From: Sulfuricurvum sp.
GTDB lineage: Bacteria > Campylobacterota > Campylobacteria > Campylobacterales > Sulfurimonadaceae
Assembly (NCBI RefSeq): GCF_028710345.1
Contig: NZ_JAQTUH010000008.1
Coordinates: forward strand, 1 to 64,000
Length of the DNA stretch: 64,000 nucleotides
Reading direction: 5' to 3'
Shown: piece after piece, positions 36,052-41,497 of the stretch
Layout of the letters: each line of letters starts with the position of its first letter
Numbering within the stretch: the stretch's first letter is position 1
The notes under the pieces: generated by a model
Database searches by the model: none
Told to the model about the DNA's origin: nothing
What the model saw: only the letters and a program-made list of their open reading frames with translations
Translations under genes and position numbers: made by a program

Positions 36052-36138
36052 AACTGCCTTAGGGCAGTAGGCTTCTCTTCTCTTTCAAATCATATAACTC
36101 TTTTTTTTTATTTAAGCTTTATTTATATACAAAATAAG

Positions 36139-36208
36139 ATATGATAATTCATATTAATCGTTTTAGAACTATAAAATTATGGTGAAATTCTATGAACGTT
36201 ATTAATAT
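36139..36208. promoter_or_regulatory. Inverted repeats upstream of the LOV regulator gene
   Basis: Within the 216-bp AT-rich gap before 36268 lie a palindrome ATATGA-taat-TCATAT (36139-36154) and a wider imperfect inverted pair, ATATTAATCGTT (36151-36162) and AACGTTATTAATAT (36195-36208). Such sites could be operators for the winged-helix protein encoded next. Confidence 0.35.
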
Positions 36209-36267
36209 CCTTTTTTAATGTCTATCTTGTCGTTAAAAAGGCACTTTGAAGATACTTTTGTAATAGA

Positions 36268-36996
36268 ATGGCTTTCATGAATGCAAAAACACTGATAAAA
36301 TTATGTGATAAATGTTATTGGAATCCTCTTACCCAAACCGTAAGTGAAGATAATCATACGATAGTATTGACATCGAGCATGACAAAATTACTCTCAATGT
36401 TGATCGATCATCATGATAAACCGGTGAGCAGTGTCGATATATTTTTTCATATTTGGGATGACTATGATAAAGAGTTTAATCCTAAAAATGTTCGCAATTT
36501 GATTAGTAATCTGCGCAAACGAATCCCATGTTTGATTATCAACAATTATTATGGAGGGCGCTATGTCCTCAAAAAATATAGGGATAATGTCCCTGATATC
36601 ACCGAATATGTCCTTGAAATACTCGATCAAGCGAAAAACGGGGTAACTATCTCTGACCCGAATTTACCGGATAATCCTATTATCTTTGTAAATGAAGCAT
36701 TTAGTGAAATGTTTGGTTATACATCCGAAGAGGTAATCGGTCGTAATTGTCGTTTTTTGCACGGAGAAGATCGCGATCAACTCTCTTTAAAAGAGATTCA
36801 AAAAGCACTGAGCGAAGAGCGAGATATTACCGTGACCCTTCGTAATTATACGAAAAGTGGAGAACTCATTTATAATGAACTCACTATTAGCCCTATTTTT
36901 GATAAAAAAACAGAAAAATTAAAATATTTTTTAGGTGTCCAAAAAAATGTCACCGCCATACAAAAGCTGATTCAACAAATCAAAAGGATGTTATAG
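36268..36996 (+). CDS. Winged-helix/LOV fusion protein, probable blue-light transcription regulator
   Basis: The 242-residue protein has an OmpR-type winged helix at residues about 30-103 (LTSSMTKLLSMLI, NPKNVRNLISNLRKRI, NYYGGRYVLKK). A LOV domain follows at about 115-230. LOV signatures are GRNCRFLHG with the adduct-forming C161 (the usual Gln after FL is His165), N193 in LRNYTKSG, N203 in YNELTISP, and Q225 in FLGVQKNVT. These positions contact FMN in known LOV proteins, so blue-light sensing is likely. The order DNA-binding domain first, LOV second is the reverse of EL222. It ends three bases before the CheB-CheR-kinase gene, so the two are co-transcribed. Confidence 0.85.
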   Translation: MAFMNAKTLIKLCDKCYWNPLTQTVSEDNHTIVLTSSMTKLLSMLIDHHDKPVSSVDIFFHIWDDYDKEFNPKNVRNLISNLRKRIPCLIINNYYGGRYVLKKYRDNVPDITEYVLEILDQAKNGVTISDPNLPDNPIIFVNEAFSEMFGYTSEEVIGRNCRFLHGEDRDQLSLKEIQKALSEERDITVTLRNYTKSGELIYNELTISPIFDKKTEKLKYFLGVQKNVTAIQKLIQQIKRML

Positions 36997-36999
36997 TCA

Positions 37000-39900
37000 A
37001 TGGCAAAGAGAAAAGTAAATAACGACTATGCAAATCTCACAATCGTCGGTTTAGGAGCGAGTGCCGGAGGGTTTGAAGCACTTCAAAAATTTATTCAAAA
37101 TATCGAGCCATCGAGTCGAATTACGTATGTTATTGTCCAACATCTCGATCCAAAACAGCCTACAATGCTAGGGACACTATTGGAGCGTTTTTCGAAAATC
37201 CCTATTATTGCTGTTACCGATAATCTTGAGCCTTTGGCAGATCATATCTACTATTGCCCGCCCAATTCCGACATCGTCATCGAAGAGGGGCATTTTAAAC
37301 TTGTCGCCCCCTCTCTCAAGCCTTATCCAAAACCCTCGGTTAATCGATTTCTAAAATCACTGGCATTGGAGAAAAAAGAAAAAGCGATAGGGATTATCCT
37401 CAGCGGTACGGGAAGTGATGGTGCAGAGGGGATTGTTGCTATAAAACAAGGGGGTGGTATCGCTTTGGCTGAAAACGAAGATGCCAAATATTTTTCGATG
37501 CCCAAAGCGGCTATCGATACCCATGCAGTGGATGCAGTTTTACCCTCGGAGTTGTTAGCGCAAGGGATCCCCTATGCGATTGATGATCCGAAATATTTTG
37601 ATCGCCATTTCGATCTTTTAGACAATATCGATAAAGTGTTTCGTTTGTTAAATCAAAAAAGTGAAGTTGATTTTAGCGATTACAAAGAAAATACCATCCA
37701 TCGCCGATTGGAGCGACGGATAATTGATACTAAATCAGAAAGTGTTACTGATTACATCGACCTTTTGCAACGTTCCCCTGCCGAAATTATGAACCTAAAA
37801 AAAGAGCTTTTGATTATTGTTACTTCACTGTTTCGCGATAAAGAGGCTTTTAGGGCATTAGGAATGGAAGTTGAGTCGCTTTTAAAGGATAAGCTCGATA
37901 ATCATATCCGTATATGGGTTGCCGCATGTGCTACGGGGGATGAAGCCTACTCTATGGCTATTGTTATCAGCGAGCTTTTGAAAAAGATGGAGATCACTAA
38001 AAAAGTGACGATTTTCGCTACCGATGTGAGTGAAGAGGCAATCGATGAGGCGCGTAGTCGAAGCTTTAGTGAGGAGGAGATTAGTGAAATCGATCCGCTA
38101 ATCCTCTCTAGCTATTTTGTTGAAAAAAACCGCAGGTACTCTCCTATCAAAGCGATACGGGACATGATCGTATTTTCGAAGCATGACGTCATTAAAGATC
38201 CTCCATTTCTAAATCTTGATTTGGTCAGTTGTCGTAATCTTTTGATTTATTTTAACTCTGAATTGCAACAACGGGTCATCAGTATCTTTTCGTATGCATT
38301 ACGTTATCAGGGGTTGATGTTTTTAGGGTTGTCCGAGACTATCGGGAATCTCACCTCTATTTTTGCTATTATTGATAACAAACACAAGATTTATCGTAAA
38401 TCAAATGATATGGGAAATATCGATATCGAAGCACTCGCCTATTTTCAAAAAAAGGATTTTCAACGCGGTTCTCGAAAATTGCGTGATGAGGTAAATGCGT
38501 TAGACATTAACGGTTCGATCAACAATGCCGTCGCAGGATTTTTTGCTCAAAACGGTATTGTAGTGGACTCCAGCGGGGGTATTTTGTTTTTCAAGGGGGA
38601 GAATAAATACATTTCTCATCCTAACGGTTTAGCAACCAATGACATCTATAAACAAGTTTCCGATTTTCTCCGACTCGATTTACGAGCTACACTAAATGAA
38701 GCAGTTAAAAATGAACACGTCACCGTCTCTAAAAAAATTCGCGTATTACCACTGACGGATGATCGTGTTTATGTGACGATCACGGTTTTTCCTCTTCCGC
38801 GAAACAGACTTGCCGAGAACAGCTATTTTATTGCATTTGAAGAGATCAATGAAACCGATCGCTCGGTACTCCTCTCGCATCAAATGCAGGTGCATGACAT
38901 CAATGACGTCAATATCCTCGAAAATGAGCTAACGGCACTCAAAGAGCGTTTACAAATTACCATCGAAGAACTCGAAACTTCAAACGAAGAGCTCCAAAGT
39001 ACGAATGAAGAGTTGCAAAGTACCAACGAAGAGTTACAATCGACGAACGAAGAGTTAGAAACCTCGAACGAAGAGCTTCAAAGTACGAATGAAGAGCTAC
39101 ATACGGTTAATGATGAACTGGAACATAAAAATAAAGAGTTGGCATTTGTCAACGAAGCATTGAATAAAGTGGTCGAAGTAATCAACACGGATGTATTGAT
39201 TTTAGACAAAAATCTCGATCTTTTCCTCCATACCAAAGGGATGGAACGGTTTTTCAAAATCAATTATATTCATAAAATCAATCTCAGTGAAATCATTATT
39301 AATGCATTAGTTTCTATCCCTGATTTGTTTGAAAACGTCAAAAATGTTGTGCAAAATAAGACAGAAGTGGAATACGATTTGATTATTGATAATCGCATCT
39401 ACTGGTTTCAAATCAAATCGATTAATTTCTCCAGTGATGATTTTGGGGTCATTATCGGCTTTACCGATAAAACCGATATCATTCGCAACCAAGAGCTGAT
39501 GTTTCAACAATCAAAACTCGCCAGTATGGGGGAGATGATTGGTAATATTGCCCATCAATGGAGACAACCGCTCAACTCACTAGCATTAAACCTTTTTGCC
39601 ATAGAGAAAAAATTTCATACCGATGCGGTCAATAAAGATCTCTTTCATACTTTTGTGGAAGAGTCTCAAAAAACCATTCAGCACATGTCCACTACTATCG
39701 ATGATTTTAGGGATTTTTTCAATCCGAATAAAGCCAAAAAATTGTTTAAATTGTCATTTGTAATCGATAAAACAATCTCATTCGTCCACGATTCGTTTAA
39801 AAATCATGGAATCACTATCTATTATGATGATAAAGGGGATATTGAAATTTTTGGGTATGAGAATGAGTTTGCACAAGTGCTTATTAACATTTTCAATAAT

Positions 39901-40200
39901 TCCAAAGATGCCATTTTACGAGAAAAACGTGAGGATGGCTTTATCCGTATTGGAGTTGAACATAAAAGAGATAAGGCTATCGTGATTATCACTGATAATG
40001 GTGGCGGAGCATCCGATGAAATTATCAATCGTGCATTTGAACCTTACTTTACGACCAAAGAGAAGAAAGATGGGACAGGAATAGGGTTGTATATGTCAAA
40101 AATGATTATCGAAAATAGTATGAGTGGATCAATCCGTATGGAGACGATCCAAAATGGGATGCAGACTGAAATCACTTTAGAAGTTAAATACGATGCTTAA
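37000..40200 (+). CDS. CheB-CheR-PAS-histidine kinase fusion
   Basis: The 1066-residue protein contains, in order, five parts. A CheB methylesterase (about 12-190) has triad residues S21 (GASAGG), H48 (VQHLDP) and D140 (GTGSDG). A CheR methyltransferase (about 205-470) has WVAACATGDEAYSMAI, FATDVSEEAID and LVSCRNLLIYF. A coiled coil (about 645-715) is built of repeated EEL(Q/E)(S/T)(T/S)N heptads. A PAS domain spans about 725-825. A histidine kinase has H852 in NIAHQWRQPL and the HATPase G boxes DNGGGAS and GTGIGLYMSK. It could modify chemoreceptors and phosphorylate a regulator; the receiver gene downstream overlaps it by 8 bp (ATGCTTAA) and is the obvious partner. It is downstream of the LOV gene. 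Confidence 0.92.
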   Translation: MAKRKVNNDYANLTIVGLGASAGGFEALQKFIQNIEPSSRITYVIVQHLDPKQPTMLGTLLERFSKIPIIAVTDNLEPLADHIYYCPPNSDIVIEEGHFKLVAPSLKPYPKPSVNRFLKSLALEKKEKAIGIILSGTGSDGAEGIVAIKQGGGIALAENEDAKYFSMPKAAIDTHAVDAVLPSELLAQGIPYAIDDPKYFDRHFDLLDNIDKVFRLLNQKSEVDFSDYKENTIHRRLERRIIDTKSESVTDYIDLLQRSPAEIMNLKKELLIIVTSLFRDKEAFRALGMEVESLLKDKLDNHIRIWVAACATGDEAYSMAIVISELLKKMEITKKVTIFATDVSEEAIDEARSRSFSEEEISEIDPLILSSYFVEKNRRYSPIKAIRDMIVFSKHDVIKDPPFLNLDLVSCRNLLIYFNSELQQRVISIFSYALRYQGLMFLGLSETIGNLTSIFAIIDNKHKIYRKSNDMGNIDIEALAYFQKKDFQRGSRKLRDEVNALDINGSINNAVAGFFAQNGIVVDSSGGILFFKGENKYISHPNGLATNDIYKQVSDFLRLDLRATLNEAVKNEHVTVSKKIRVLPLTDDRVYVTITVFPLPRNRLAENSYFIAFEEINETDRSVLLSHQMQVHDINDVNILENELTALKERLQITIEELETSNEELQSTNEELQSTNEELQSTNEELETSNEELQSTNEELHTVNDELEHKNKELAFVNEALNKVVEVINTDVLILDKNLDLFLHTKGMERFFKINYIHKINLSEIIINALVSIPDLFENVKNVVQNKTEVEYDLIIDNRIYWFQIKSINFSSDDFGVIIGFTDKTDIIRNQELMFQQSKLASMGEMIGNIAHQWRQPLNSLALNLFAIEKKFHTDAVNKDLFHTFVEESQKTIQHMSTTIDDFRDFFNPNKAKKLFKLSFVIDKTISFVHDSFKNHGITIYYDDKGDIEIFGYENEFAQVLINIFNNSKDAILREKREDGFIRIGVEHKRDKAIVIITDNGGGASDEIINRAFEPYFTTKEKKDGTGIGLYMSKMIIENSMSGSIRMETIQNGMQTEITLEVKYDA

Positions 40201-41497
40201 ATCATTTACCCTTTTATATGTTGAGGACGATTCTTCCACCGTGCGTTCTTTTATCAATGCATTCGGTGATTATTTTAATGAGGTAATTATTGCGCGAAAT
40301 GCAGAAGAGGGGTTAGAGCTTTTTGAAAAACATTCTCCTCATATTTTGATTACTGATTTACAGCTTCCAAAAATGAGTGGATTGGAGATGATAGCACACA
40401 TACGCCATGCACATCCATCTTTTCCTATCATCGTTAATTCCGCTTTTAGTGATACCCATTTGTTATTACGAAGTATTGCATTGCATGTTGACAATTATAT
40501 TCTCAAGCCGACTGATCCGTATCAGCTGTTGCATGTGTTGGAAAAAATAGCTCGGATTATTACATTGGAGAAAAAACTCAATACCACTCGTGAAATAATG
40601 CAGACGATGATCGATGGAATACCCGATCCCATCCTTTATATTGAACCTGATTACACGATAGCAATGATGAATCAGGCAGCAAAAGAACAAGCCGATGATT
40701 CAGTACTGGTCAATAAATGTTTTAATTTAGCACAAAAAAATCTTCCTGCGTGTTCAGAAGATGGGAGCTCATGCCCAATGAACAGCGTTAAAAAAATAAA
40801 GCAACCAGTCACTATGCGTCATCTACGAAAAGATAAAGAGGGAAACAAACGGTATGTTGAAGTGCATATGCGCCCCATTTTAGATACAGAGGGTGAGATA
40901 ACTGCTTATGTTGAAATTACGCATGATATTACGCAATATCTGACAGTACAAGATCGCCTTGTGGCGGAAACAGAAAAGTTATCCCATATTTCGATGCACG
41001 ACCCCCTAACACATCTCCCTAACAGACGTCTTTTTATGGATAGAATAGAACAAACGATTCAACATAAAAGCCGAACTAAAGAGATATTTGGTGTATTTTT
41101 TATCGATTTAGACCATTTTAAAGAGATTAATGATTCTATCGGTCATTCAAGTGGTGATTTGTTATTGATAGAAGCGGCAAAGCGGATGCAAAAAGTTATC
41201 CGTAAAGGGGATACCCTATCACGTTTTGGCGGGGATGAATTTCTCCTGATAATTGAAAATGGAATGACAGTATCCCATTTTTCAAAGATAGCAGAAAAAA
41301 TACAAAAACTTTTTCAAGAACCTTTCTTAATTAATGAACATCAAGTCGTGAGTAGTTGTAGTATCGGCATTAGCTTATTTCCGCAAGATGGCAAAAATGC
41401 AGAGCTTCTCTTAAGTAATGCAGATAAGGCAATGTATGCGTCTAAAAACGGTGGTCGTCACCAATTTCACTTTTTTGATCCGAAATTGATGGTGTAA
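40193..41497 (+). CDS. Receiver-PAS-GGDEF diguanylate cyclase
   Basis: The 434-residue protein has a receiver domain (residues 1-125) with acidic residues E11-D13, phosphoacceptor D55 (ITDLQLPKM) and the Lys of NYILKPTD. A PAS domain (about 135-250) includes a CXXC-like ACSEDGSSCPMN segment. A GGDEF domain (about 265-434) has HDPLTHLPNRRLFMDR and an intact GGDEF at 346-350. It makes cyclic di-GMP. An RxxD inhibitory site is not obvious. The 8-bp overlap with the CheB-CheR-kinase gene strongly suggests that this kinase phosphorylates it, linking the module to motility or attachment decisions. Confidence 0.92.
   Translation: MLKSFTLLYVEDDSSTVRSFINAFGDYFNEVIIARNAEEGLELFEKHSPHILITDLQLPKMSGLEMIAHIRHAHPSFPIIVNSAFSDTHLLLRSIALHVDNYILKPTDPYQLLHVLEKIARIITLEKKLNTTREIMQTMIDGIPDPILYIEPDYTIAMMNQAAKEQADDSVLVNKCFNLAQKNLPACSEDGSSCPMNSVKKIKQPVTMRHLRKDKEGNKRYVEVHMRPILDTEGEITAYVEITHDITQYLTVQDRLVAETEKLSHISMHDPLTHLPNRRLFMDRIEQTIQHKSRTKEIFGVFFIDLDHFKEINDSIGHSSGDLLLIEAAKRMQKVIRKGDTLSRFGGDEFLLIIENGMTVSHFSKIAEKIQKLFQEPFLINEHQVVSSCSIGISLFPQDGKNAELLLSNADKAMYASKNGGRHQFHFFDPKLMV

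Follow-up and report, generated by a model that had tools for sequence, protein, structure and literature searches.

The operon and its genes

Three genes follow one another on the forward strand of the window, the 64,000-nucleotide stretch of Sulfuricurvum sp. DNA analysed here. The first (36277..36996) encodes a winged-helix (wHTH)-LOV protein of 239 aa, a putative one-component photoregulator; the second (37000..40200) a 1066-aa fusion of CheB, CheR, a coiled coil and a histidine kinase; and the third (40193..41497) a 434-aa diguanylate cyclase in which a receiver (REC) with the phospho-acceptor D55 and a PAS domain with three cysteines precede a GGDEF domain with an I-site at R337/D340. 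Pfam and NCBIfam matches underlie all three assignments, joined by residue checks for the fusion and the cyclase and by an OmpR-family profile match, an AlphaFold model of the wHTH and an alignment for the LOV protein. A preliminary description of the locus had proposed an operon with this content, the genes being separated by 3 bases (36997-36999) and overlapping by 8 bases (40193-40200); both distances are correct, and all of its domains were recovered with their active-site residues intact. It overlooked a proposed operator and promoter at 36240-36269. An Rfam search of the operon for RNA elements gave no match.

The open reading frames were first called at 36268-36996, 37000-40200 and 40193-41497, all on the forward strand, which would give a LOV protein of 242 aa. 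Translation probably starts instead at the ATG at 36277, since the ATG at 36268 shares bases with the -10 hexamer TAGAAT and is absent from several homologues, whose protein begins in the alignment at an MNxx equivalent to 36277. The flavin-contact residues first listed as C161, N193, N203 and Q225 are all present, but their numbers were counted from 36268 and become C158, N190, N200 and Q222 when counted from 36277.

The wHTH-LOV protein

The LOV half is recognised by PAS_9 (1.6e-21, Pfam) and by the YtvA-family LOV model (4.8e-44, NCBIfam), and has the FMN-pocket motif NCRFLxG with the photoactive Cys, two Asn and the C-terminal Gln; flavin binding is predicted. AlphaFold models this half with low confidence, and Foldseek matches of the whole protein are LOV domains already evident from sequence. 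The winged helix matches Trans_reg_C (2.9e-7, 30.9 bits against a cut-off of 26.2, Pfam) and, in profile comparisons, CssR (6e-8) and PDB 1kgs of the OmpR family (2.5e-5). Its AlphaFold model has the predicted order E-E-E-E-H-H-H-E-E at a pLDDT of ~88 over most of the domain, so that sequence match, beta4-alpha-alpha-alpha-hairpin topology and a basic recognition helix are found together, with the recognition-helix and wing residues R76, R83 and YGG invariant across the family alignment. A tandem direct-repeat operator near the promoter, the further hallmark of an OmpR/PhoB-type wHTH, is present at the sequence level. A domain search detected no N-terminal receiver; the input domain being LOV, the protein is not classed as an OmpR-family response regulator.

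This architecture was seen only in Campylobacterota, at full length in ~32 of 200 family genomes, and the wHTH is kept in every family member examined. Three loci (L046-L048) carry a wHTH-LOV gene that adjoins no GGDEF gene and is divergent from a 127-aa open reading frame for a small PAS_3 protein, which we take to resemble the energy-taxis proteins Aer and CetB.

The promoter of the operon and its proposed operator

At 36240..36259 on the forward strand, in the position of a -35 element, stands the tandem 11-bp repeat GGCACTTtgaaGATACTTTT, located by alignment, position weight matrix (PWM) and genome scans and proposed as the operator of the wHTH-LOV protein. The repeat is direct, of the form GGCACTT-N4-GATACTTTT with an 11-bp period, and comes just before the -10 hexamer TAGAAT (36264..36269, forward strand), which the ATG at 36277 follows at a distance of 7 nt. 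PhoB-type pho boxes are likewise tandem 11-bp repeats that replace the -35 element directly before the -10, and the repeat at 36240-36259 is an OmpR/PhoB-type operator for which binding is predicted. In LOV-first relatives a TAnAAT hexamer recurs at fixed spacing with the ATG 6-8 nt downstream, a distance so short that the operon mRNA is probably leaderless or nearly so. Alignment of the upstream regions across relatives yielded a single conserved block of 30 bp, RRCACTTYnnnRRYACTYTTnnnnTAnnAT, and no conservation outside this operator and -10 block.

When the PWM for each test was trained without the clade under test, the operon promoter outscored every other position in 32 of 34 complete loci (5-64 kb each); the training sites had first been chosen as the best upstream matches, which makes this a cross-validation by clade rather than a blind trial, and for clades G and I the site is reported a few bases or one repeat unit off. 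Shuffled sequence (598 kb) contained no PWM site above 12 bits. The operator tracks whichever gene leads the cassette, be it LOV, CheB-CheR (L052, L059, L060, L061) or GGDEF-EAL (L053, L055-L058), the last group having the LOV gene at the end and the operator ahead of the leading gene. A further cassette with an operator is L051; in L049 the box is located after the LOV gene, and in L094 none was detectable. Allowing 3 mismatches in a scan of the family genomes proved too permissive, with matches in 165 of the 200; the exact degenerate pattern, used instead, gave 44 matches in 200 genomes against 0 for the reversed control. Matches that begin with G number 21, with 17 at wHTH-LOV cassettes, one in genome G142 and three in G198.

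A different OmpR-family regulator might bind the operator, with the wHTH-LOV protein working elsewhere. AACACTT boxes before TonB receptors and before an OmpR-type response-regulator gene in other lineages would fit such an arrangement, as would G198, where a protein search of the family genomes found no wHTH-LOV protein to accompany the three G-type boxes. Against it, the G-type box has stayed with the cassette when this was transferred horizontally or rearranged, and is nearly absent otherwise; in the source genome (3.0 Mb) the site at 36240-36259 is the only one with zero mismatches. Sites with 1-2 mismatches in that genome, considered as a possible wider regulon, number 17 against 15 in the reversed control, and none has a properly spaced -10; near-matches at control level favour a dedicated regulator. 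Binding by a different regulator is therefore regarded as improbable, and with an OmpR/PhoB-type operator at the operon promoter, autoregulation by the wHTH-LOV protein is most likely.

Similar boxes occur in other places. In G142, the genome that carries the closest relative of the cassette, an exact operator-promoter (L184; contig C83, reverse strand, starting at base 2933 when reverse-complemented) lies ~30 nt before a gene for a GGEEF cyclase of 612 aa that has a CMQCH heme motif, and this cyclase is likely a second target of the wHTH-LOV protein there. A sister box, AACACTTTTGTAACACTTTT-n4-TAnnAT, precedes TonB-dependent receptors in other genomes (L188, L189, L192 and further ones) and probably serves a different OmpR-type regulator as its operator. 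Boxes of the type AACACTT...AACACTT were considered as further wHTH-LOV targets and set aside as belonging to another regulator, because in other lineages they stand before TonB receptors and further genes. In G139 the site AGCACTTTAACAGCACTTTTTGGCTAAAAT stands 25 nt before a transposase-like gene in five identical copies (L187) and is probably a promoter that travels with an insertion element.

The CheB-CheR-kinase fusion and chemotaxis

The fusion contains CheB (6.5e-45), CheR (1.6e-45), HisKA (2.1e-6) and HATPase_c (6e-15) domains by Pfam. CheB residues S21/H48/D140, a Ser-His-Asp triad, and CheR residues R279/G313/D342/N413 of the SAM-site motifs are intact in 16 of 16 homologues, and this part is probably an active methylesterase/methyltransferase pair; the kinase residues H852/N967/D999/G1025 are intact in the source fusion. 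Pfam detected no PAS segments in the fusion of the source genome and weak ones in its L052 and L061 homologues. The coiled-coil linker (38950-39100) consists of near-identical ETSNEELQSTNEELQ repeats, with five or six NEEL units in homologues. The source genome (3.01 Mb) also encodes flagellins, ~two dozen PF00015 (MCP) matches over the cut-off and six CheB genes; of the five besides the fusion, three are, judged by size, not fused to CheR.

Coupling of light to receptor methylation had been suggested for this operon, and no link of this kind was found: the fusion has no detectable LOV domain, and CheB and CheR are intact even where the kinase has decayed. A related explanation is that the LOV protein signals by contact with the fusion, so that light directly alters receptor methylation and cyclase phosphorylation without a transcriptional step. 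The tight linkage of the two genes, the intact CheB/CheR residues of all 16 fusions and the many MCPs of the source genome are compatible with this. Such contact would not account for the wHTH in every member examined, nor for an OmpR-type operator before the operon in any gene order; LOV-GGDEF cassettes without CheB-CheR exist (L037, L042, L050, L053, L055-L058), and the five other CheB-bearing genes of the source genome would serve ordinary chemotaxis. Protein contact is accordingly considered unlikely. Light probably acts on transcription, because the LOV protein has a DNA-binding domain and an operator at its own promoter.

Probable pairing of the kinase with the cyclase receiver

In the cyclase Pfam identifies Response_reg (3.4e-19), PAS_4 (7.6e-14) and GGDEF (1.1e-47). 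The receiver residues D12/D13/D55/S83/K105 are intact, and the output domain has a GGDEF A-site at 346-350 (GG[D/E]EF) and an RxxD I-site (R337/D340), found in 17 of 17 homologues. The PAS domain bears the motif C-x10-C-x6-CP (C176, C187, C194), which may be a metal or redox site and whose Cys are invariant in the same number of homologues (17/17).

Every operon whose kinase is intact (16 of 16) also encodes a receiver, located on the cyclase or, in L059, just before it, whereas just one of 11 cassettes lacking an intact kinase retains it (L042). Fisher's test gives 1.3e-6 for this association, a value that is only indicative because the sequences are related and not independent. Decay of the kinase is seen in L052 and L061, with no HATPase_c and with key residues changed, while CheB and CheR residues are retained, and Pfam found no receiver in the cyclase partners of these two fusions. 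Kinase and receiver were lost together in five of six lineages, and this joint loss supports their pairing. The H, N, G1 and G2 boxes of the kinase and the acidic pocket, Asp, Ser/Thr and Lys of the receiver are thus co-inherited, and phosphotransfer between the two proteins is predicted. Some cassettes (L035-L037, L039, L043, L059, L060) have an added EAL domain, so relatives may differ in whether their output raises or lowers c-di-GMP.

Horizontal spread of the cassette

The LOV protein is 94, 88 and 86% identical to its counterparts in G142, G165 and G071, whereas YebC of those genomes is only 65-66% identical; within the genus, YebC is 82-98% and LOV 60-89% identical. Flanking genes vary between cassette loci. 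The slot between an ATPase gene and yebC (36052-36235; L161-L166) holds a GGDEF-EAL sensor gene, the LOV cassette or, in G086, both; in relatives without the cassette, the same slot reads ATPase-GGDEF/EAL-YebC. Homology with G086 starts at 36235, five bases before the operator. Taken together, the LOV and YebC identities, the varied flanks and the slot comparison indicate that the cassette passes between genera as a unit together with its promoter.

The same three-gene set was found again in many genomes, and the arrangement is therefore not attributed to chance. Family genomes are rich in signalling genes, which makes such neighbours common, and the three genes might in principle be accidental, functionally uncoupled neighbours. 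Their recurrence across genera and insertion contexts, joint horizontal transfer, shared promoter and joint loss of kinase and receiver make this highly implausible.

Phytochromes and LOV domains without the photoactive cysteine

Several relatives carry a second class of photoreceptor gene beside the cassette: heme oxygenase and phytochrome-HD-GYP genes follow it in L037, L039, L044, L050 and L094, and in L052 a phytochrome-GGDEF gene, with phytochrome only, precedes it. Phytochromes occur in nine of the 200 genomes, and six of the 14 phytochrome open reading frames lie in wHTH-LOV clusters against ~0.02 expected. No phytochrome was found in the source genome.

The photoactive Cys is kept in the great majority of LOV proteins, including that of the source genome, and is replaced in five relatives: by Ser in L037 (9530-10258), by Pro in L050 (9552-10340) and L049 (5081-5788), by Leu in L094 (9995-10711) and by Ile in L061 (9648-10367). 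Three of the five adjoin a heme oxygenase-phytochrome pair, and Cys-less LOV genes are found in three of six phytochrome-linked loci against two of 29 others (Fisher 0.026, without phylogenetic correction). In L037 and L050 the Cys-less gene is accompanied by a box still in place at the cassette promoter and by the phytochrome cluster, and since the box persists there, the LOV regulator may in places work without photochemistry of its own. The LOV gene of L039 (G005:C4), from a metagenome-assembled genome and also adjoining a phytochrome, has an in-frame TAA exactly where the conserved flavin-contact Gln is normally encoded, either a lost photoreceptor or a sequencing error.

These substitutions bear on whether the LOV domain serves in vivo as a flavin redox or oxygen sensor, as would suit a micro-oxic sulfur oxidizer, with the transcriptional part of the mechanism kept. 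The five replacements (S, P, P, I, L) speak for this, as does a Cys-less LOV-like PAS domain of P. aeruginosa RmcA implicated in redox as well as light effects (PMC8846402). Retention of the Cys in the great majority, the source genome included, and the joining of bilin photoreceptor and heme oxygenase genes to several cassettes speak for light, and redox sensing appears rather unlikely, if a little less so than the protein-contact and other-regulator explanations.

The wHTH-LOV/box core is retained while the modules joined to it (kinase-receiver, EAL, phytochrome-heme oxygenase) are gained and lost. Red light may replace blue in some lineages, because LOV often has no Cys where it lies beside a phytochrome (L037, L050, L094). 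It is tentatively suggested, with the odds still against it, that this is a horizontally moving light cassette in which one regulator and operator core was conserved and outputs and light colour were swapped in evolution.

A proposed light-to-c-di-GMP circuit

The preferred reading, to which we assign a probability of about 0.68, is a self-regulating photosensory c-di-GMP cassette in which light acts via the wHTH-LOV protein on its own operon and the kinase acts on the cyclase receiver. Blue light would form a cysteinyl-FMN adduct at C158 of the C-terminal LOV domain, as its residues suggest. The light state would then alter binding of the N-terminal wHTH to the 11-bp repeat and switch transcription of the operon, a step for which comparative genomics offers strong support; the repeat in place of a -35 element favours the wHTH-LOV protein as an activator. 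The co-transcribed kinase, with a separate input of its own, would phosphorylate D55 and thereby control the GGDEF output, and changed c-di-GMP would shift the cells between motile and sessile states. Labour would be divided such that light sets the amount of kinase and cyclase machinery and the kinase sets the activity of the cyclase; that light probably sets this amount is suggested by the passage of operator and gene set together between genera. The connection from blue light to c-di-GMP made in the preliminary description thus gains support from the conserved LOV-GGDEF/EAL linkage, the phytochrome clustering and the second exact operator in G142, but the route would run through transcription, not through receptor methylation.

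Relation to known photosensory systems

Sulfurimonas and its kin are for the most part chemolithotrophs that oxidize sulfur, and light is not an evident cue for such organisms. In the open-access literature, the scope of our search, no description was found of LOV photoreception in Sulfurimonas or its Campylobacterota/Epsilonproteobacteria kin, nor of LOV joined to an OmpR-type helix with a cassette-borne operator over c-di-GMP genes. With its own c-di-GMP module under a sharply defined predicted operator, this photoreceptor transcription factor would form a directly testable circuit, and the wHTH-LOV protein and its operator are a possible compact optogenetic regulator/promoter pair. The natural series of blue only, blue plus red and Cys-less cassettes lets the swapping of light inputs be studied.

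With PhoB/OmpR response regulators the protein shares its winged-helix effector and the tandem 11-bp repeats in place of the -35 element; unlike them, it has a C-terminal LOV domain in place of the receiver and is predicted to respond through flavin photochemistry, not phosphorylation. EL222 similarly combines LOV and a DNA-binding domain in one small protein, a one-component regulator, but its LuxR-type HTH is C-terminal to LOV. In the present protein the DNA-binding domain is instead an N-terminal winged helix of OmpR/PhoB type, with a predicted operator in the form of an 11-bp tandem repeat at the protein's own operon. Bacteriophytochromes (PAS-GAF-PHY) with heme oxygenase are joined to the cassettes of relatives (in L052 the phytochrome only) and absent from the source genome. 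Both LOV transcription factors, such as the LOV-HTH photoregulator EL222 of Erythrobacter litoralis (PMC9614035), and LOV-fused c-di-GMP enzymes, such as the LOV-GGDEF/EAL fusion SL2 of Synechococcus elongatus (PMC8846402), are known. As in SL2 and the LOV-activated diguanylate cyclase of PDB 8c05, blue light would lead to c-di-GMP here; in those proteins the sensor is fused to the enzyme, whereas in this cassette it forms a transcription factor of its own, whose gene lies beside those of the enzymes.
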